Virus record (IMG/VR): IMGVR_UViG_3300028800_000259
Coordinates: 1 to 29,515 of that record
Origin: a virus
DNA: 29,515 bases
Strand: one strand, 5' to 3'
In this document: in pieces, positions 4,042-29,472 of the stretch
Position numbering within the stretch: position 1 is the first letter of the stretch
How the letters are laid out: each line of letters starts with the position of its first letter
The notes under the pieces: model-generated
Seen by the model: only the letters and a program-made list of their open reading frames with translations
Databases searched by the model: none
What the model was told of the DNA's origin: nothing
Position numbers and translations under genes: made by a program

Positions 4042-4049
4042 TATAAATA
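4042..4049 (+). promoter_or_regulatory. T4-type late promoter (TATAAATA) for the long fibre gene
   Basis: Exact TATAAATA, the T4 late consensus, in an intergenic gap. By T4 geometry the start would fall about 6 bases downstream, near 4055, giving a leader of about 21 bases to ATG 4076. The last bases of the element also form the left arm of an inverted repeat (ATACCCC at 4047-4053 with GGGGTAT at 4068-4074). Confidence 0.75.
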
Positions 4050-4074
4050 CCCCATAGCCTAGCGCAGGGGGTAT
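4047..4074 (+). repeat. Inverted repeat overlapping late promoter and ribosome site
   Basis: ATACCCC (4047-4053) and GGGGTAT (4068-4074) are complementary. The right arm includes the G-rich ribosome-binding stretch just before ATG 4076. There is no T-run, so this is not a terminator. RNA starting upstream could hide the ribosome site, whereas RNA starting near 4055 would lack the left arm. Confidence 0.4.
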
Positions 4075-4075
4075 A

Positions 4076-11245: not shown

Positions 11246-13363
11246 ATGGCGAACCCGCTCTACCCTGGCGTAACCGTAACCGAATACGACCTCACCACGT
11301 CGGTTCCGCAGCCGTCTCCGGCCACCGCCGCTCTCGCCGGCGTGTTCAACTGGGGACCGGTCCTCGAGATCATCTCGATCCCCGACACCACCACCCTCGC
11401 GCGCACCTTCGGGCCCCCGACCTCCAACAACGCCGAGACCTGGTTCACGGCCTGGTCCTACCTGGCCTACTCAAACCAGCTGCTCGTGGTCCGCGCGGCC
11501 AACACGACGACCGGCAACTCGATGTCGTACCTCAACGCGATCGGCAACACCGCCGCCGTCGGGAACATCTCGAGCCTCGTCGTCCTCAACAGCATCGACT
11601 TCGGCAGGAAGGCCGGCAACAACGTCCAGGTCGCCGGCTTCGACGCGAACTGCATGTACGTCGCGAAGTTCCCGGGCGCGAGGGGCAACAGCCTCCAGGT
11701 CGCGGTCTGCGACTCGGTCAACGCCTACTCCTCCAACATCAACATGGTCGCGAACGCCGACGTCTCGGCGTCGATGACCATCGCGATCGGCGCCAACAGC
11801 GTCATCATCAACTGCAACTCGGTCGCCGGCAACGTCGCGGCTGCTACGCTCTTCGCGAACACCCTGCTCGGGGAGATGTCGCAGGGCGACTACCTGGTCG
11901 TCGGCAACAACGCCAACATCGGGACCCAATTCCTCCAGCTGAACACGATAACCAACATCTCCAACGTCTCGTACGCCGGGCTGTCGGTCACGTTCGTGTC
12001 GCCCTACGCGCTGAAGGGCGCGTTCACGGCGAACGCGACGACCGCCAACACGCTCCAGCGCTACTGGGAGTACTTCAACATCATCGGCCAGCCGCCGATA
12101 CAGACGACCTGGGTCAGCCAGTACAACACCAACACCGCGGTGATCGACGGGCAGCACGTCGTCGTCATCGACGCCGGCGGACTGTTCAGCGGCGTCCCGG
12201 GCACGGTGCTGGAGACCTACAAGAACGTCTCCAGGGCGACCACGGCGAAGACCACCGGCGGCGCGGCCAACTACTACCAGACGGTGATCAACCAGAACTC
12301 CAACTACGTCTGGGCGGTCAACGACAGGCCGGACCACAACGCCAACTCCGGCACGGCCCAGACCGTGCTGTCCTCGACCGACAACATCCCGCTGCTCCTG
12401 CAGTTCAACGACGGGCAGGACGGCGAGACCGAGAACGCGGCGTCCCTGGCGACGATCGGCAGCGGCTACGACATGTTCAATTCGACCTACAACTCGACGA
12501 TCAACCTCGTCCTGCAGGGCAAGCCGATCGGCGGCACGACGGTCGCGACGAACGGCATGACCGTCAACAACTTCCAGCTGGCCAACTACCTGATCAGCAA
12601 CCTGATCGCGCTGCGCAAGGACTGCATGCTCTGCATCACTCCGGACGACCAGGTCGTCCTGGGCAACAAGGGCAACGAGGCGTTCGCCCTCTCGGCCTGG
12701 AGGAGCGTCGTCACCTCGAGCTCGTACGTCACCTGCGACTCCGGGTACCACCAGGTCTACGACAGCTACAACAACGTCTACAGGTACGTCCCGACCAACG
12801 GTGACGTCGCCGGCCTGTGCGCCTACACCGACCAGATCAGGAACCCGTGGTGGTCGCCGGCGGGCTTCAACCGCGGCTTCCTCAGGAACGTCGTTCAGGT
12901 CCGCTTCAACCCGGGCCAGACCGACCAGGGCACGCTCTACAGCAACTCGATCAACCCGATCGTCACGTTCCCGAACCAGGGCACGGTCCTGTACGGCGAC
13001 AAGACGCTGCTGACGCAGCCGTCGGCGTTCTCCAGGATCAACGTCCGCAGGCTGTTCCTGACCCTCGAGAAGGCGATCAGCATCGCGGCGCAGTACTCCC
13101 TGTTCGAGTTCAACGACTCGTTCACTCAGGCGGCGTTCGTGAACCTCGTGACGCCCTACCTGAAGCAGGTCAAGGCGCTGCGCGGCATCACCGACTTCTA
13201 CGTCCAGTGCGACGGCACCAACAACACGCCGGTCGTGGTCGACGCGAACCAGTTCATCGCTTCGATCTACATCAAGCCGGCGCGCTCGATCAACTGGATC
13301 ACGCTTAACTTCATCGCGGTCCCGACCGGGGTGTCGTTCAGCACCGTCGTCGGCACGTTCTGA
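11246..13363 (+). CDS. 18: Contractile tail sheath protein gp18
   Basis: 705 residues from ATG 11246, with a GAAGGAGAACAAG ribosome site. The N-terminus MANPLYPGVTVTEYDLTTSV and the LAGVFNWGPV segment (about 28-40) are canonical gp18. The C-terminal FEFNDSFTQAAFVNLVTPYL, CDGTNNTP and SIYIKPARSINWITLNF blocks form the conserved sheath domain that interlocks subunits. Longer than T4 gp18 (659). About 140 copies surround the tube and contract at infection (family knowledge). The same C-terminal fold appears to be copied in the small protein at 25262. Confidence 0.95.
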   Translation: MANPLYPGVTVTEYDLTTSVPQPSPATAALAGVFNWGPVLEIISIPDTTTLARTFGPPTSNNAETWFTAWSYLAYSNQLLVVRAANTTTGNSMSYLNAIGNTAAVGNISSLVVLNSIDFGRKAGNNVQVAGFDANCMYVAKFPGARGNSLQVAVCDSVNAYSSNINMVANADVSASMTIAIGANSVIINCNSVAGNVAAATLFANTLLGEMSQGDYLVVGNNANIGTQFLQLNTITNISNVSYAGLSVTFVSPYALKGAFTANATTANTLQRYWEYFNIIGQPPIQTTWVSQYNTNTAVIDGQHVVVIDAGGLFSGVPGTVLETYKNVSRATTAKTTGGAANYYQTVINQNSNYVWAVNDRPDHNANSGTAQTVLSSTDNIPLLLQFNDGQDGETENAASLATIGSGYDMFNSTYNSTINLVLQGKPIGGTTVATNGMTVNNFQLANYLISNLIALRKDCMLCITPDDQVVLGNKGNEAFALSAWRSVVTSSSYVTCDSGYHQVYDSYNNVYRYVPTNGDVAGLCAYTDQIRNPWWSPAGFNRGFLRNVVQVRFNPGQTDQGTLYSNSINPIVTFPNQGTVLYGDKTLLTQPSAFSRINVRRLFLTLEKAISIAAQYSLFEFNDSFTQAAFVNLVTPYLKQVKALRGITDFYVQCDGTNNTPVVVDANQFIASIYIKPARSINWITLNFIAVPTGVSFSTVVGTF

Positions 13364-15873: not shown

Positions 15874-16512
15874 ATGATCATCTACAAGATAACTAACAAC
15901 ATCACAAAAAAGGCTTATGTAGGTCAAACGCGATCAACGCTCGAGGAGCGCTGGATGGGTCACTGCAATGACGCGCGTGGCAAGAGCAAACGTAAGTTTC
16001 TAAGCGCCATACGTAAGTATGGTACCGAGTGCTGGACTCTAGAAGTTATTGAAAAGGTTTCTAGCGTCGAACTACTAAATGAACGCGAGGTTTACTGGGT
16101 AGCGTACTACAATACGTTTCATAATGGCTATAACATGAGAACTGGAGGAGGACAGTGCTCACTTTTTAATGCGGAAGCGCGTCAGCACATGTCTGAATCA
16201 CAACGTCGAAGATTTACTGAACAAGGAGTCTCAGACGCGACGAGGCAGAAACTACGAGAAGCTAACTACAAGCGCGAGTACGGCCCGATGCGTGAGGAAG
16301 TTCGTTTAAAAATGCTAGGATGGGTTCCAAGTCAAGAGACACGAGCGCTGTGGTCCAAACAACGCAGGGGCGTAAAGCGGGGTCCGATGTCGGACGACAC
16401 GCGACGTAAGATAGGCGCCGCGCATCGAGGCAAGAAGCGAGGACCACTTCCTTTAGAAACACGAATGAAGCTATCTGAAGCTCTACGAAGAGCGCGAGCA
16501 CACAATAAGTAA
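15874..16512 (+). CDS. GIY-YIG homing endonuclease with NUMOD3-type repeats
   Basis: 212 residues from ATG 15874. GIY-YIG nuclease domain at residues 1-90: IYKITN and AYVGQT form the two signature strands, LEERWMGH supplies the catalytic Arg, and the NEREVYWV helix supplies the Glu. The C-terminal half carries NUMOD3-like DNA-binding repeats (KRGPMSDDTRRKIGAAHRGKKRGPL). GC content is visibly lower than in gp20 and gp67, with A/T-ending codons, a sign of transfer. Free-standing genes of this kind cut cognate phage genomes lacking the insertion and spread with their flanks. It is inserted between gp20 and the gp67-like gene. No good ribosome site is seen. Confidence 0.9.
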   Translation: MIIYKITNNITKKAYVGQTRSTLEERWMGHCNDARGKSKRKFLSAIRKYGTECWTLEVIEKVSSVELLNEREVYWVAYYNTFHNGYNMRTGGGQCSLFNAEARQHMSESQRRRFTEQGVSDATRQKLREANYKREYGPMREEVRLKMLGWVPSQETRALWSKQRRGVKRGPMSDDTRRKIGAAHRGKKRGPLPLETRMKLSEALRRARAHNK

Positions 16513-22223: not shown

Positions 22224-23675
22224 ATGTCAAACCAGTATCTAGTTGAGGAAGAGGGCAAGGCGGTAGCCGCCCAGAACAAGTGGCAGAAGATGCTGGACTA
22301 CGAGGGCCCGGGCGTCGGAGCGATCCGCGACGACAGGTCCCGTAACGGCGTCTGGAACCGCAGGTCGGTCACGGCAATGGTCCTCGAGAACACGGTCCGC
22401 GAGATGCGCGCCGCGGGCTCGCTGATGGGCCGCCAGGGCCTGATCGTCGAGGACGTCGGCCTCGAGCCGATCCCGGCCAACTTCATGGGCGCCTCCTCGT
22501 CCACCGCCGGAACCGGCGGCGTCGACACCTTCGACCCGGTTCTTATCTCCCTCGTCCGTCGCGCGATGCCGAACCTGATCGCGTACGACATCTGCGGCGT
22601 GCAGCCGATGACCGGCCCGACGGGCCTGATCTTCGCGATGCGCTCGCGCTACAACACGATGGCCAACTCCTCGGGCAACAACACGGGCTACGCCGACAAC
22701 GAGACGTTCTACAACGAGGTCAACACCGCGTTCTCGACCGTCGTCGCCGGCAACACCACGTTCGGGCAGGGCTTCACCGGCACGTTCCCGGGCCAGACCA
22801 ACACCACGGCGCTGGTCAACACCGCGAACTACAACACCGGCACGGGCATGTCGACGGCGCAGGCGGAAGCCCTGGGCACGTCCTCGAACTCCGACTTCCC
22901 GCAGATGGCGTTCAGCATCGAGAAGGTCACGGTGACCGCCAAGTCCCGCGCCCTCAAGGCTGAGTACACCATGGAGCTCGCGCAGGACCTGAAGGCGATC
23001 CACGGCCTCGACGCCGAGACCGAGCTGGCCAACATCCTGTCGGCCGAGATCCTCGCGGAGATCAACCGAGAGGTCGTTCGCACGATCAACATCACCGCGG
23101 TCTCCGGCGCGCAGGACAACGTCACGACGTCCGGCGTGTTCGACCTCGACACCGACTCCAACGGTCGATGGATGGTCGAGAAGTTCAAGGGCCTCATGTT
23201 CCAGCTGGAGCGCGAGTGCAACCACATCGCGAAGGACACCAGGCGCGGGAAGGGCAACATCGTCATCGTCAACAGCGACGTGGCGAGCGCCCTCCAGATG
23301 GCCGGCGTCCTCGACTTCACACCGGCCCTGAACAGCAACAACCTGCAGGTCGACGACACCGGCAACACCTTCGCCGGCGTCCTGAACGGCAGGCTCAGGG
23401 TCTACATCGACCCCTACGCGATCGGCGGCAACTACTTCACCGCCGGCTACCGCGGCTCCTCGGCGTTCGACGCGGGCCTCTTCTACTGCCCGTACGTCCC
23501 GCTGCAGATGGTCCGCGCGGTTGACCAGCAGTCCTTCCAGCCGAAGATCGGGTTCAAGACCAGGTACGGCATGGTCGCCAACCCGTTCGCCCAGGGCCTG
23601 ACCCCGGGACACGGCAACCTGACGCTGCAGACCAACCTCTACTACCGCACGGTCGTCGTAAATAACCTCATGTAG
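22224..23675 (+). CDS. 23: Major capsid protein gp23
   Basis: 483 residues from ATG 22224. HK97-fold T4-type capsid protein: N-terminal scaffold-like arm (about 1-80), then FDPVLISLVRRAMPNLIAYDICGVQPMTGPTGLIFAMRSRY (about 104-144). Further blocks: AFSIEKVTVTAKSRALKAEYTMELAQDLKAIHGLDAETELANILS, NIVIVNSDVASALQMAGVLDF, and VYIDPYAIGGNYFTAGYRGS. It is cleaved near the end of the arm by gp21; a GLIVE/D site near residue 77 is a candidate (inference). Arginine uses mainly CGC (14 of 24; AGG 6), unlike neck genes where AGG dominates, as fits its very high expression. Confidence 0.95.
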   Translation: MSNQYLVEEEGKAVAAQNKWQKMLDYEGPGVGAIRDDRSRNGVWNRRSVTAMVLENTVREMRAAGSLMGRQGLIVEDVGLEPIPANFMGASSSTAGTGGVDTFDPVLISLVRRAMPNLIAYDICGVQPMTGPTGLIFAMRSRYNTMANSSGNNTGYADNETFYNEVNTAFSTVVAGNTTFGQGFTGTFPGQTNTTALVNTANYNTGTGMSTAQAEALGTSSNSDFPQMAFSIEKVTVTAKSRALKAEYTMELAQDLKAIHGLDAETELANILSAEILAEINREVVRTINITAVSGAQDNVTTSGVFDLDTDSNGRWMVEKFKGLMFQLERECNHIAKDTRRGKGNIVIVNSDVASALQMAGVLDFTPALNSNNLQVDDTGNTFAGVLNGRLRVYIDPYAIGGNYFTAGYRGSSAFDAGLFYCPYVPLQMVRAVDQQSFQPKIGFKTRYGMVANPFAQGLTPGHGNLTLQTNLYYRTVVVNNLM

Positions 23676-23716: not shown

Positions 23717-23750
23717 AAAAGAGGTCGGAGAATATCCGACCTCTTTTTTT
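23717..23750 (+). terminator. Rho-independent terminator after gp23
   Basis: AAAAGAGGTCGGA (23717-23729) pairs perfectly with TCCGACCTCTTTT (23735-23747) around a 5-base loop, followed by further Ts. It isolates the late head operon from the endonuclease and accessory genes downstream. Confidence 0.9.
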
Positions 23751-23762
23751 ATTGGAGCAGAC

Positions 23763-24350
23763 ATGACTGAGAAGTACGGTTTCGTGTACGTGTGGTACGA
23801 CAGACAAAGAAAGCGCTACTACGTAGGTTCACACTGGGGCAATGAAAACGACAGGTACGTGTGTTCATCAACATGGATGAAACACGTCTACAAGAAGAAC
23901 CCAATGCTCTTCAAGAGGCGCGTAGTCAAGAGGATCTATACGTCACGAGCCGACCTCCTTGTTGAAGAACAGAGGTGGCTGGACATGATCAAGGACCACG
24001 AGCTGGCTACGTTTAACACGACGCTCGAGCAGAGACAAACTGTGCGCTACTACAACTTCACTAAGAGCGTGAAGGACCCCTGGCACACCTATGAGATCAA
24101 GAGGCTTGAAGTAGGCCAGAAGATCTCAGCCAGCAAGACAGGCAAGAACACCGGCAAGCGCGATCCGTCGGTAGGCGCCAAGATATCAGCCGCAAAGAGG
24201 GGCAAGGCGCTCACTGAAGAACACAAGCAGGCGCTCAGGAACGCCAAGGCCGGCAGGAGCTACCCTCACACCGAGGAATGGAAGCGAGCGAACGGCGAGA
24301 GGATGAAGAGGCTCTGGGTCGAGAGGAGAGCATCTAGAGAAACTATTTGA
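23763..24350 (+). CDS. GIY-YIG homing endonuclease with NUMOD3-type repeats
   Basis: 195 residues from ATG 23763, with TGGAGCAG upstream as ribosome site. GIY-YIG domain about 1-95: GFVYVWYD and RYYVGSHWG are the two signature strands, with a conserved RADLLVEEQRWL helix containing the Glu. C-terminal NUMOD3-like repeats: QKISASKTGKNTGKRDPSVGAKISAAKRGKALTEEHK (about 120-156). More A/T-ending codons than gp23. It is the second endonuclease of this class in the window, again placed just after a core head gene. Different in sequence from the one at 15874, so not a recent copy. It has no obvious promoter between the terminator and its ATG. Confidence 0.85.
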   Translation: MTEKYGFVYVWYDRQRKRYYVGSHWGNENDRYVCSSTWMKHVYKKNPMLFKRRVVKRIYTSRADLLVEEQRWLDMIKDHELATFNTTLEQRQTVRYYNFTKSVKDPWHTYEIKRLEVGQKISASKTGKNTGKRDPSVGAKISAAKRGKALTEEHKQALRNAKAGRSYPHTEEWKRANGERMKRLWVERRASRETI

Positions 24351-24379
24351 TTGACGAGAGAACCACCCGGTGATATGAT
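24351..24379 (+). promoter_or_regulatory. Sigma70-type promoter of the moron-like unit
   Basis: TTGACG (24351-24356), 17-base spacer, TATGAT (24374-24379), with a TG one base before the -10 (extended -10). It starts right at the end of the upstream endonuclease gene. The same TGATAT extension occurs at the 28647 promoter. Expected to be read by unmodified host RNA polymerase, unlike the late genes around it. Confidence 0.75.
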
Positions 24380-24401
24380 CGAATCATCGAGGTATATCAC
24401 C
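24369..24401 (+). promoter_or_regulatory. Possible operator overlapping the -10 box
   Basis: GGTGATAT (24369-24376) and ATATCACC (24394-24401) are perfect inverted repeats flanking a 17-base centre that also contains ATGAT/ATCAT. The left arm covers the -10 and the right arm the predicted start region. It could be a repressor site. A smaller CGAGGT/ACCTCG hairpin at 24388-24404 is a competing explanation as a 5' RNA structure. Confidence 0.4.
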
Positions 24402-24423
24402 TCGGCTGTGACAGGAGACTGAC

Positions 24424-24918
24424 GTGAATCTTGGACGAATAGTTAGGGCGGCGATCGGCGCGACGATCGGCAGCGTGATCGCTATCAGCCTGGCCACCGG
24501 CGCCGACAGGGCCCTGCCCGCCAAGTGGCCGAGCAACGGCAAGGAGGCGCTGGCCTTCATCCTCAACGAGCCCGGCTCGGTCTGGGAGCGCACCACCGGG
24601 AAGTCGATCAGCTTCAAGTTCCTGGTCGGGAAGCCGATCATCGCGATCTTCAACCCCTACGACGACACTATCGTGAACGTCGTCTGCGACGGCAAGTGGT
24701 CGCTCGTGGGTCCGAACGCCTACAACAAGAAGCTCGGCGCCCCGGACAAGATCAAGGCGCACCAGGTCGTGCTGGTCCCGACCGACAGGTTCGACGGGTC
24801 CTGCATGCAGTCGATCACCGCGGTCCTCGACGGCGGCGAGAACCACCCTGGTCGCCTGGAGATCCCGGGCGACTTCACGAACTCGACGACGATCATGTTC
24901 GCTCCGGCCGACGAGTGA
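24424..24918 (+). CDS. Unrecognised exported or membrane-anchored protein
   Basis: 164 residues from GTG 24424, with AGGAG at 24413-24417 six bases upstream. N-terminal NLGRIVRAAIGATIGSVIAISLATGA is a basic start plus hydrophobic segment (about 7-25), i.e. a signal peptide or anchor. The rest (about 30-164) is a mixed alpha/beta soluble domain with two cysteines (VVCDGKW near 88 and GSCMQS near 126), compatible with a periplasmic disulfide. No family recognised. First gene of a two-gene unit with its own host-type promoter and terminator inside the late region, as in lysogenic-conversion 'morons'. Host envelope modification or superinfection exclusion is possible but unproven. Confidence 0.7.
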   Translation: MNLGRIVRAAIGATIGSVIAISLATGADRALPAKWPSNGKEALAFILNEPGSVWERTTGKSISFKFLVGKPIIAIFNPYDDTIVNVVCDGKWSLVGPNAYNKKLGAPDKIKAHQVVLVPTDRFDGSCMQSITAVLDGGENHPGRLEIPGDFTNSTTIMFAPADE

Positions 24919-24921
24919 GCC

Positions 24922-25182
24922 GTGAGCGAGGACAACGAGGATCGGACCGAGGTTCGGCTAAGGATCGATCACGACACGGTGGTGATCGTCTCTATTGTTG
25001 CGTACGTGGTGATCGCGCTGATCATGTACGGATGGGACTCAGCCTACTACGTGCACCTCTGCGAGGCTAAGCCGAACGAAGCGATCTGTCACGACCCGGG
25101 GGTGTTCTTTGGGCCGCTGTTCCTGGGCGTGCTCTGGCCGCTCTACTGGGTCCTGCACCTGGCCACGCTGCTGTTCATGTAA
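24922..25182 (+). CDS. Small two-helix membrane protein
   Basis: 86 residues from GTG 24922, 3 bases after the preceding stop. Charged N-terminus (MSEDNEDRTEVRLRIDHD), a first transmembrane segment at about 19-37 (TVVIVSIVAYVVIALIMYG), a loop with Cys47 and Cys56, then a second segment at about 61-86 (VFFGPLFLGVLWPLYWVLHL...). A loop disulfide outside the cytoplasm would be consistent with N-in/C-in topology. No family recognised; size and topology also fit holins or T4 Imm-like exclusion proteins, but no signature supports either. It forms a unit with the 24424 gene and ends just before a terminator. Confidence 0.7.
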   Translation: MSEDNEDRTEVRLRIDHDTVVIVSIVAYVVIALIMYGWDSAYYVHLCEAKPNEAICHDPGVFFGPLFLGVLWPLYWVLHLATLLFM

Positions 25183-25206
25183 ACGCACGCGACACGCCTT
25201 CGAGCC

Positions 25207-25214
25207 CATAAATA
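25207..25214 (+). promoter_or_regulatory. T4-type late promoter (CATAAATA) overlapping a terminator
   Basis: CATAAATA whose last bases are the first bases of the left terminator arm. The predicted late start (about 25220) lies at the end of that arm. Late RNA would therefore lack it and not terminate, while RNA from the upstream early promoter would carry the full hairpin. Confidence 0.6.
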
Positions 25215-25248
25215 CCCCCGGATCACACGATCACGGGGGTATTTTTTT
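25211..25248 (+). terminator. Rho-independent terminator of the moron-like unit
   Basis: AATACCCCCG (25211-25220) pairs perfectly with CGGGGGTATT (25234-25243), followed by a T-run. The 13-base loop contains GATC twice, allowing further pairing. It closes the transcription unit begun at 24351. Confidence 0.9.
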
Positions 25249-25261
25249 GATCAGCGCCGAC

Positions 25262-25555
25262 ATGATGAAGACCCTGAGCGACGCCATCGGCCAGGCCATG
25301 GCGCAGTTCATCTTCGAACCGAACGATAAATACACGAGGGAGCAGCTCTCCACGACGCTCGGCAAGATCCTGCAGGAGCACGACGCGGCCGGCGTCAGGA
25401 TAGTCTGCGACGAGACCAATAACACGCAAGAGGCCGTAGACCTGCACGAGCTGCGTGTGACGGCCTACTACGAGCTACACGATCACCAGTGGTTCAAGAG
25501 GGACTACACCGTGGTGCGGGACGACGTTAACCACAGGGCGCTTCAGGGGGAGTAA
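25262..25555 (+). CDS. Stand-alone protein resembling the tail sheath C-terminal domain
   Basis: 97 residues from ATG 25262 (next ATG 25265; in-frame TTG 25247 lies in the terminator T-run). It aligns by eye with the C-terminus of gp18 of this phage: LSDAIGQAMAQFIFEPNDKYT against LEKAISIAAQYSLFEFNDSFT. Also CDETNNTQEAVDLHELRVTAYYE against CDGTNNTPVVVDANQFIASIYIK. That sheath region forms the interlocking inner domain. The rest of a sheath is absent and the end (HDHQWFKRDYTVVRDDVNHRALQGE) is different. Possibly a tail accessory or sheath-interacting protein expressed late from 25207. No clear Shine-Dalgarno seen. Function inferred only from this similarity. Confidence 0.65.
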   Translation: MMKTLSDAIGQAMAQFIFEPNDKYTREQLSTTLGKILQEHDAAGVRIVCDETNNTQEAVDLHELRVTAYYELHDHQWFKRDYTVVRDDVNHRALQGE

Positions 25556-26104: not shown

Positions 26105-27052
26105 ATGGCGCCGATCGCACCGCTCCACGTAGTCACTGCAGTCTCGAACCCGATCAGGTGGGGCTCGAGGATAAGGCACGCCCGGGACACGATCAGGGAG
26201 TGGGTCGACGACGGCGCGCACGTGACTGTCGTCGAGTGCGCGACCGGCGAGAGGCCCCACGAGCTGCTGGAGATACCGGGCACGACGCACGTCGCGCTCA
26301 GGTCCAGCACGATGGCCTGGAACAAGGAGTGCCTGCTCAACGTCGGCATCAACAGGCTCCCGCACGAGGCCAAGTACATCGGCTGCTTCGACGCCGACAT
26401 CCACTTCCGCAAGCGCTCGTGGGTCGAGGAGACCGTCCACGCCCTGCAGCTCTACCCGGTCATCCAGCCGTGGACCGACGCCTACGACCTCGGCCCGAAG
26501 GACGAGCACCTCCAAGCGCACAAGAGCTTCTGCGGCCTGTACAGGCACGGCAAGCCCGTAATACCGACCGGCCCCAAGTTCTGGAAGTTCAGCGGCGGCC
26601 CGTACGACTACTCCCACACCGGCTACGCCTGGGCGTACAAGAGGCAGTTCCTCGAGGACGTCGGCGGACTGATCGAGGTCTGCGCGATGGGCTCCGCCGA
26701 CCACCACATGGCCTACGCCATGCTCGGCCAGGTCGAGAAGTCCCTGCCGGGCAGGGTGTCGAAGAGCTACTCCGACGCGCTCTACCTCTGGCAGATGCGC
26801 GCGCTGAGGAGCGCGAACAAGAAGCTCGGCTACGTCAACCAGACGGTCGAGCACCACTTCCACGGGAAGAAGAGCAACAGGGGCTACCAGCACCGCTGGG
26901 ACATGTTCCTCGAGGCGGGGTTCGACCCCCTGACGGACCTGAAGAAGAACTCCTACGGCGTGATCGAGTTCGCCGGAAACAAGCCGGAGCTGGAGCTGCA
27001 GTGGGAGCTGTACCTCCGCTCGAGGAACGAGGACGACAACATTGCTGGCTAG
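26105..27052 (+). CDS. GT-A glycosyltransferase, phage virion-region type
   Basis: 315 residues from ATG 26105. Starts LHVVTAVSNPIRWGSRIRHA, a typical opening of a conserved phage glycosyltransferase group. Then SSTMAWNKECLLNVGINRLP (about 68-86) and the metal-binding DxD in YIGCFDADIHF (Asp96/Asp98). Later GFAW-like GYAWAYKRQFLEDVGG and GSADHHMAYAMLG (about 198-210), which carries acceptor-site residues. It transfers a sugar from a nucleotide-sugar donor; the acceptor is unknown (virion protein, DNA base or host surface glycan). No signal or membrane segment, so cytoplasmic. Expressed late, which favours a virion-protein or lysate-stage target. Confidence 0.8.
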   Translation: MAPIAPLHVVTAVSNPIRWGSRIRHARDTIREWVDDGAHVTVVECATGERPHELLEIPGTTHVALRSSTMAWNKECLLNVGINRLPHEAKYIGCFDADIHFRKRSWVEETVHALQLYPVIQPWTDAYDLGPKDEHLQAHKSFCGLYRHGKPVIPTGPKFWKFSGGPYDYSHTGYAWAYKRQFLEDVGGLIEVCAMGSADHHMAYAMLGQVEKSLPGRVSKSYSDALYLWQMRALRSANKKLGYVNQTVEHHFHGKKSNRGYQHRWDMFLEAGFDPLTDLKKNSYGVIEFAGNKPELELQWELYLRSRNEDDNIAG

Positions 27053-27218
27053 AGTAACTTACGTCGCCGCCGCGCTCGCGGCGCTCGTCGCGCTGTCGGG
27101 GTGCGAGTCGATGAACCTGTTCGGGGAACCGGGGTTCACGCTGGCGGGCTCGTACGCGGGGACCGTGTCCGACAGTGACTGGGGCAAGATCTCAGGGCTC
27201 GTCGGCGAGGCGCGGTAA
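27042..27218 (+). CDS. Small lipoprotein (TTG start), possible outer-membrane spanin
   Basis: 58 residues from TTG 27042 (CTG 27045 possible), overlapping the glycosyltransferase end by 11 bases; GAGG about 9 bases upstream. Basic start (MLARVTY), hydrophobic run (VAAALAALVAL), then the lipobox LSGC with Cys21 as lipidation site. The mature part of 38 residues is short, ending LVGEAR. Signal peptidase II processing would give a Ser/Met/Asn-containing outer-membrane lipoprotein. Short phage lipoproteins are often o-spanins that fuse membranes at lysis; no inner-membrane partner is seen next to it. A Gram-negative host is implied if correct. Confidence 0.65.
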   Translation: MLARVTYVAAALAALVALSGCESMNLFGEPGFTLAGSYAGTVSDSDWGKISGLVGEAR

Positions 27219-27298: not shown

Positions 27299-27586
27299 AT
27301 GATGATGGACCCGACGTCGGTCGAACTGAAAAAGCTCGTGCAAACCATAGAGGCGAGGCTCCTCGCGCTGGAGCACAGGCTCGCGGCGCTCGAGCTCAGG
27401 CTGAGCCTCCCGCTGCCCGCGCCGCGCCTGGGACCGAGCTACAGCTACTGCGCTGGGACGAACGACACGCTAACGACGACCCAGCCGCTGGGCGGGTACG
27501 TCGGCTCGAGCTACACGCTCACGGCTAACCCGGACGGCACGATCAACTGGCCGGAGGGCGTCGTCGCGACGCCGACCGCCAAGTGA
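27299..27586 (+). CDS. Unrecognised small protein with N-terminal coiled coil
   Basis: 95 residues; three consecutive ATG codons (27299, 27302, 27305) follow AGGAG at 27286-27290. Residues about 6-40 (SVELKKLVQTIEARLLALEHRLAALELRL) show leucine heptads, so a short coiled-coil oligomerisation segment. A Pro-rich linker and a small beta-like C-terminal part (TLTTTQPLGGYVGSSYTLTANPDGTINWPEG) follow. It might be a tail or fibre accessory trimer. No family recognised. Its stop overlaps the next start (GTGA), so expression is coupled to the tube-family protein. Confidence 0.6.
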   Translation: MMMDPTSVELKKLVQTIEARLLALEHRLAALELRLSLPLPAPRLGPSYSYCAGTNDTLTTTQPLGGYVGSSYTLTANPDGTINWPEGVVATPTAK

Positions 27587-28185
27587 CTCAGCGCGACGAC
27601 GTCGAGGGGTGGCCGGTCGGGAAGCTCTACACGCCCGGCAACCAGAACTACAACGCGGTCACCAACACCCCTGTCAACACCAACTTCCTCACGAAGCTCG
27701 GCTACAAGCTGTACGTGAAGAGGGCGCAGCACGTGAACTTCTTCGCGCAGAACGTGGAAATCCCGCGGATGTCGGCGAAGCCGGCCAAGCAGCAGGGCAT
27801 GTTCTCGGCGATCCCCAAGTGGGGCGACCACGTCGAGTACGAGCCGCTGAGGGTCAGGTTCATAGTGGACGCCGAGATGCTCAGCTACCTGGAGCTGTAC
27901 CACTGGTTCAGGGGCCTGACGAAGCCCGAGACGTTCAGGCAGTACAGGGAGCTGATGAACGTGCCGCTGGTGTCGGGAGAGGGCCAGACCTCGGACATCG
28001 GGGTGCACGTGCTTTCGTCGACCGAGGTGCCCAAGCTGGAGTACGTCTTTCACGACTGCTTCCCAAGCGCGCTGGGCGGGTTCAACTTCGAGTCCACCAA
28101 CGACGACGTCGTGTACGTGACCGTCGACGCCACCTTCGAGTACTCGACGTTCGACGTGAAGAAGATAACACAGGCGTGGGGTTAA
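27583..28185 (+). CDS. Tail tube-family protein (gp19/gp54-like)
   Basis: 200 residues from GTG 27583. Pattern: YKLYVKRAQHVNFFAQNVEIPRMS (about 42-65), then IPKWGDHVEYEPLRVRFIVDAEMLSYLELYHWFRGLTKPETF (about 77-118). After that come SDIGVHVLSSTEVPKLEYVFHDCFPSALGGFNFESTNDDVVYVTVDATFEYSTFDV. This is the arrangement of gp19-fold tube proteins from marine T4-like and related myoviruses ('NVxFFxQxVxIP', 'VDEDMxxYLEIYxWLxGL', 'FPTSLSxLxF'). A second tube-fold protein besides gp19 is typically the baseplate tube initiator (gp54) or a baseplate hub component. Exact role is inferred. Confidence 0.75.
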   Translation: MTQRDDVEGWPVGKLYTPGNQNYNAVTNTPVNTNFLTKLGYKLYVKRAQHVNFFAQNVEIPRMSAKPAKQQGMFSAIPKWGDHVEYEPLRVRFIVDAEMLSYLELYHWFRGLTKPETFRQYRELMNVPLVSGEGQTSDIGVHVLSSTEVPKLEYVFHDCFPSALGGFNFESTNDDVVYVTVDATFEYSTFDVKKITQAWG

Positions 28186-29040: not shown

Positions 29041-29472
29041 ATGACGGTCGAAGAGATCCTGGGCGAGTGGGACAAGGACTCAAAGATCGACCAGACCGAG
29101 CTGGGAAGAGAGAGCCTGCGGGTCTCGGAGCTCCACCACAAGTATTACAAGATGTTCGTCGGCGAGAGGCTGGCCAGGCGCAAGCTCGAGGCCGAGCTCA
29201 AGGACCTCAAGCTGAGGAAGCACGAGTTCTACCTCCATGGCCCGTCCCGCGAGACCGAGGGCGAGGGGTGGAGGCACCCCGGCACGAGGCCGCTGAGGTC
29301 TGACCTCGGTCTCTACACCGACGCCGACGAGGGCGTGCAGCTGCTGACGATGAGGATCGGGTACCAGCAGGAGAAGATCGACCTCCTGGAGTCGATCATA
29401 AAGCTGATAGGCGCGAGGAACTACGCGATCAAGAACGCGATAGACTTCCTCCGCTTCACTAACGGGGGATAA
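29041..29472 (+). CDS. uvsY: Recombination mediator UvsY
   Basis: 143 residues from ATG 29041 (T4 UvsY is 137). The start TVEEILGEWDKDSKIDQTELGRESLRVSELHHKYYKMF matches UvsY of cyanophage-like T4 relatives closely. It continues with LKLRKHEFYLHG (about 58-69) and a C-terminal IDLLESIIKLIGARNYAIKNAIDFLRF helix used for oligomerisation. UvsY hexamers load UvsX recombinase onto gp32-coated single-stranded DNA during recombination-dependent replication and repair. Its early or middle role fits the sigma70-type promoter upstream. Confidence 0.9.
   Translation: MTVEEILGEWDKDSKIDQTELGRESLRVSELHHKYYKMFVGERLARRKLEAELKDLKLRKHEFYLHGPSRETEGEGWRHPGTRPLRSDLGLYTDADEGVQLLTMRIGYQQEKIDLLESIIKLIGARNYAIKNAIDFLRFTNGG

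Follow-up and report, generated by a model that had tools for sequence, protein, structure and literature searches.

A putative early envelope-directed gene pair between gp23 and gp3 of a T4-like phage, followed by a hairpin that holds a late promoter

We read the two-gene unit orfA-orfB as an early envelope-directed pair placed where the late region varies between relatives, with superinfection exclusion as its likeliest role; a hairpin would end the early RNA, and a late promoter would start the next gene. We give this reading as a whole a probability of about 0.4. The window, that is, the whole 29,515-base virus record analysed, carries head and tail genes of a T4-like phage, and the unit was located between gp23 and gp3, adjoining a GIY-YIG gene.

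The PHROG search identified gp23, the major capsid protein gene, at 22224-23675 (phrog_138, 7e-155), with Stenotrophomonas phage DLP6 (66%) and the Sinorhizobium phages phiN3 and phiM12 (61%) as its nearest named relatives. The gene at 27583-28185 matched gp3 of phiM12 and its counterpart in DLP6, and the gene at 29041-29472 matched UvsY. T4-like phages are known as a lytic group. With at most one mismatch allowed, there were 12 occurrences of the late promoter motif TATAAATA across the window, where 0.83 would be expected; most lie directly 5' of late genes. RNA families and tRNAs were looked for and none was found. After gp23, an intrinsic terminator lies at 23717-23747 on the plus strand (13-pair stem, -20.8 kcal/mol, T-run), and this hairpin is predicted to close the late capsid transcript upstream of orfA-orfB. 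Between it and 25207 the only late promoter was a poor one, AGTAAATA, at the gp23 terminator itself.

A pattern scan found a sigma-70 promoter with an extended -10 element at 24351-24379 on the plus strand (TTGACG-17-TATGAT), matching the consensus at 10 of 12 positions and carrying in addition a TG one base 5' of the -10. Its weight-matrix score of 16.0 ranked third among all sites of the window on both strands and exceeded the plus-strand maxima listed for ten shuffled windows (10.2-14.2). The near-consensus promoter described in the initial annotation was thus recovered. The two higher-scoring sigma-70 sites form a divergent pair beside the uvsY unit. Genes of the uvsY class are read outside the late program, and we therefore count the position of these two promoters in favour of an early reading of the orfA-orfB promoter. 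A minus-strand sigma-70 promoter at 28618-28589 (12 of 12 consensus positions, spacing 18) points back towards gp3; downstream of it there is only a 50-aa ORF (28559-28407), and an antisense RNA from it is possible.

The 8-bp inverted repeat proposed as an operator, GGTGATAT at 24369-24376 and ATATCACC at 24394-24401, does exist. However, repeats of equal size arose in 3.5% of shuffles of the 111-bp region (P about 0.035), and the window contains 42 of that size. Seven of the eight bases of the left arm (GTGATAT) belong to the extended -10, and GTGATAT recurs at the other extended -10 promoter (28647) with no right-arm partner. For these reasons the repeat was not counted as an operator, and it is probably coincidental. 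A possible 5'-leader hairpin, CGAGGT-ATATC-ACCTCG, lies at 24388-24404 on the plus strand; its perfect 6-bp stem has a P of about 0.15 by chance.

Both ORFs of the unit were confirmed as real coding genes. The own-frame codon scores were 0.92 for orfA and 0.47 for orfB, all other frames scored lower, and four of the five were negative for each gene. The product of orfA (24424-24918, plus strand, 164 aa, Shine-Dalgarno AGGAG) showed one hydrophobic segment at residues 6-24 (KD 1.90) in the hydropathy prediction, followed by a soluble domain with Cys88 and Cys127. The segment is weakly hydrophobic and Ala/Gly-rich, and the protein is predicted to be exported or signal-anchored, depending on whether cleavage takes place after ATGA. 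orfB (24922-25182, plus strand, 86 aa) starts 3 nt past the orfA stop, and its product was predicted to have two membrane helices (KD 2.53 and 1.81) with Cys47 and Cys56 (CX8C) in the loop between them. These predictions agree with the signal-anchor protein and the two-helix protein with a cysteine loop described earlier. A strong hydrophobic segment (>1.8) was present in only three of the 34 products checked, namely those of orfA, orfB and a small lipoprotein gene, all within the gp23-gp3 insert, in line with the expectation that both products of the unit are envelope-directed.

The tblastn searches against phages and the IMG/VR scans for both proteins, and those of genome contigs and plasmids for orfA, found no homologue; nor did 20 complete records of related or named phages contain a relative of either. 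Neither protein matched a family in PHROG, Pfam, NCBIfam or PADLOC, in agreement with the initial annotation, which recognised no family for either, and comparison with solved structures gave chance matches only. The AlphaFold2 single-sequence model of orfB was a helical hairpin (pLDDT 76), for which Foldseek returned uninformative E values of 3 or more, and the structure prediction of orfA without an alignment (pLDDT 33) was unusable.

The unit ends in an intrinsic terminator at 25210-25247 on the plus strand (-23.3 kcal/mol, followed by 7 T). The perfect terminator claimed at this point is thus strong, yet it is also the predicted late start site for the next gene: a T4-type late promoter overlooked in the initial annotation, CATAAATA at 25207-25214 on the plus strand, lies in the 5' arm of the stem. 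In T4, the late promoter motif occupies positions -13 to -6 from the start (PMC1524935), and the predicted start is therefore 25220. Folding showed that an RNA beginning there loses the outer 10 pairs of the hairpin and retains a 4-bp stem; the ten leading bases of the 5' arm lie before this start, and the late RNA would be unable to form the terminator. The GGGGG of the 3' arm is seven bases 5' of the TTG at 25247 and is a plausible Shine-Dalgarno sequence of the next gene, so that the structure at 25207-25247 combines a late promoter in one arm with a candidate Shine-Dalgarno in the other. Late-promoter hairpins are documented for I-TevI, segB, gene e, soc and Aeh1 mobE (PMC2988022, PMC3014915). 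The present one shares with them the 5'-arm late promoter, the covered Shine-Dalgarno of the late gene and the expected escape of late transcripts; unlike them, it has a run of 7 T and would therefore also terminate the early unit.

The composite ATAAATACYCC...GGRGTAT was present at two places in the window (4043 and 25208), with an expectation of 0.00. Nine related loci (L089, L090, L091, L111, L112, L122, L132, L150 and L019) had one copy each, directly 5' of a GIY-YIG gene in eight of the nine. Both sites in the window (4042-4075 and 25207-25247) fuse a late promoter to a hairpin, and the usual place of the composite is before a GIY-YIG or late gene. It apparently hides the Shine-Dalgarno and at some sites doubles as a terminator. 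Hairpins were not shown to be enriched at late promoters in general (18 distinct among 713 motifs vs 17 among 1,049 AT-rich controls, whose hits may include true terminators); among late-promoter hairpins, only this specific form stands out.

The next gene (25247-25555, plus strand, 102 aa, TTG or ATG start) encodes a stand-alone C-terminal domain of the tail sheath (phrog_23, E=4e-11), aligned to profile positions 369-448 of 496. Its top-ranked matches in phage records were tail sheath genes, and it also matched related loci. It is outside the early unit and is expected to use its own predicted late promoter. A full-length sheath gene is present elsewhere (11246-13363), and the homology of the stand-alone protein is confined to the C-terminal domain. 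A role in capping or regulating the sheath is possible.

The free-standing GIY-YIG homing endonuclease gene upstream (23763-24350, plus strand; phrog_314 homing endonuclease, E=9e-15), which the initial annotation had overlooked, ends at the base preceding the -35, so that its stop codon abuts the promoter. In the close relatives L005, L008 and L010, gp3 lies within about 100 bp of gp23. A GIY-YIG endonuclease follows gp23 in L006, L012, L013 and L016, and is the sole gene before gp3 in L012 and L013. An alignment-based search with the endonuclease returned 80 loci, about 38 of which have gp23, GIY-YIG and gp3 in order; the gap from endonuclease to gp3 in these is mostly 100-300 bp and sometimes 0.5-1.3 kb, against 3.2 kb in the window. 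Dozens of relatives thus carry either the GIY-YIG gene alone or variable cargo between gp23 and gp3.

In the window this 3.2-kb insert holds orfA-orfB, the sheath C-terminal domain, orfD, a glycosyltransferase-like gene and the small lipoprotein gene. The glycosyltransferase-like protein (26105-27052) has a CFDADIHF motif and no Pfam match, and its two IMG/VR relatives (57-59%) lie in a different gene context. The lipoprotein (27042-27218, 58 aa, lipobox LSGC), whose gene has a strong terminator 3' of it, resembles small exclusion lipoproteins by architecture only (phrog_1119 Cor, E=0.2). Far from this site, a second GIY-YIG-like gene (15874-16512) follows gp20; its codon usage is foreign (GC3 0.47 vs about 0.93), and it is apparently a recent arrival.

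Two related loci carry comparable cargo with no homology to the window pair. L150 has a GIY-YIG gene, TTGACT-17-TATGAT, a signal-peptide protein and a terminator; its contig begins just before the endonuclease, so gp23 is not seen there. In L017, gp23 and a terminator are followed by an apparent GIY-YIG remnant, a signal-peptide protein and a membrane protein of the EamA family, and no good sigma-70 promoter was found there. The stretch L017:9609-10466 after gp23 comprises the remnant, an exported protein that is rich in cysteine and has two repeats, and an EamA transporter protein of half size. Three independent examples of a docking site might be given by the window, L150 and L017: the gp23-gp3 gap with GIY-YIG would receive self-contained, non-homologous early envelope cassettes that shut out competing phages. 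Co-infecting phages would acquire the site from one another through the endonuclease, while the cassette would act against rivals. In other relatives the gap contains FkbM methyltransferases, a metal-dependent hydrolase and structural-looking or uncharacterised genes; the site is therefore not reserved for envelope genes. We regard the docking-site proposal as improbable.

Under the preferred reading, host sigma-70 RNA polymerase would start at the strong extended -10 promoter and transcribe orfA-orfB shortly after the DNA has entered, and the pair would therefore be made before the structural proteins. OrfA would pass through the inner membrane by export or stay anchored in it; OrfB would sit in that membrane as a small two-helix protein, its periplasmic loop probably containing a disulfide. 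Together they would change the envelope in such a way that phages of the same or a related kind that arrive later fail to complete DNA entry. The hairpin at 25210-25247 would terminate the early transcript, and later the promoter in its 5' arm would start the next gene on an RNA lacking the hairpin.

Such a division of labour would resemble that of T4, in which the exclusion proteins Spackle and Imm, and the periplasmic disulfide of Spackle, are documented (PMC7677548). A small, predicted two-helix membrane protein, a predicted periplasmic protein with a cysteine pair and, as expected here, early expression would be common to both. The pairs differ in that OrfA has 164 aa against 97 for Spackle, that imm and spackle are non-adjacent in T4 whereas orfA and orfB are adjacent, and that OrfB has cysteines between its helices whereas T4 Imm has none. 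Direct comparison gave no alignment of OrfB with Imm and a chance alignment of OrfA with Spackle (E=5.7); the T4 pair would thus be a functional analogue and not a homologue. As there is no homology to T4 Imm, Spackle or the families of PHROG, Pfam, NCBIfam and PADLOC, superinfection exclusion is a guess from anatomy. The unusable orfA model, the non-envelope cargo elsewhere and the lack of a good promoter in L017 also count against it, as does the missing exclusion homologue.

The pair could instead serve early host takeover or be housekeeping membrane proteins, in either case without a role in exclusion; they might, for example, inhibit an envelope enzyme of the host, stabilise the membrane or affect nutrient uptake. 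For most novel early ORFs of T4-like phages no function is known, and such ORFs commonly lie behind early promoters (Nolan et al. 2006, PMC1524935), which, together with the missing exclusion homologue, fits this alternative. We consider it doubtful but still to be reckoned with, the pairing of an exported and a two-helix protein being closer, by architecture only, to Spackle and Imm. A lysis or lysis-timing pair, in which OrfB would be holin- or antiholin-like and OrfA a signal-anchored periplasmic regulator like T4 RI, would suit the weak N-terminal segment and two-cysteine domain of OrfA and the two helices of OrfB. It is nevertheless unlikely: no match to a holin, antiholin, spanin or endolysin was found, so the recognisable lysis function that had been named beforehand as refuting did not appear; OrfB has no charged C-terminal tail, and no lysozyme gene was recognised beside the unit. 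Lysis genes would also be expected late or held back, whereas the promoter here is of the host type. That the promoter-like sequence is unused and the ORFs are read late, through the gp23 terminator, is very unlikely, given a score above the listed shuffled maxima and strong terminators before and after the unit; even so, a consensus match is not function, and promoter use is predicted from sequence.

The description of the unit as a moron-like cassette stood in part. Like lambdoid morons, it is short, is flanked by its own promoter and intrinsic terminator, and lies between genes adjacent in relatives, although the insert carries further genes too; it is self-contained and has a host-type promoter inside the late region. 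It is not a strict lambdoid moron. GC3 (0.93 for orfA and 0.85 for orfB vs 0.91-0.95 for core genes) and codon usage are phage-like and show no distinct base composition of recent acquisition, and the unit has a homing endonuclease gene as its neighbour, in a T4-like backbone of the lytic type. A reading as a classical moron, which would be a recent acquisition transcribed by host polymerase in a lysogen and controlled by an operator, could claim the promoter and terminator, the placement and the 8-bp repeat. It is highly improbable, considering the core-like composition, the lytic group to which the backbone belongs and a weak repeat accounted for by the -10. Novel ORFs of T4-like phages usually have phage-like GC content and do not appear 'moronic' (PMC1524935). 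The unit belongs with those having early promoters, sharing with them unfamiliar ORFs, an early promoter of its own and the GC content of the phage; unlike them, it lies in the late head and tail region (gp23-gp3), and both its products look envelope-directed. The arrangement is known, and the genes are new.

If the pair does exclude phages, two unrelated families would join the short list of superinfection exclusion proteins, and such genes would be tied to a homing-endonuclease site common to competing phages. If it does not, the locus would still represent a compact predicted switch, in which one hairpin ends an early unit and the promoter in its arm starts a late gene.
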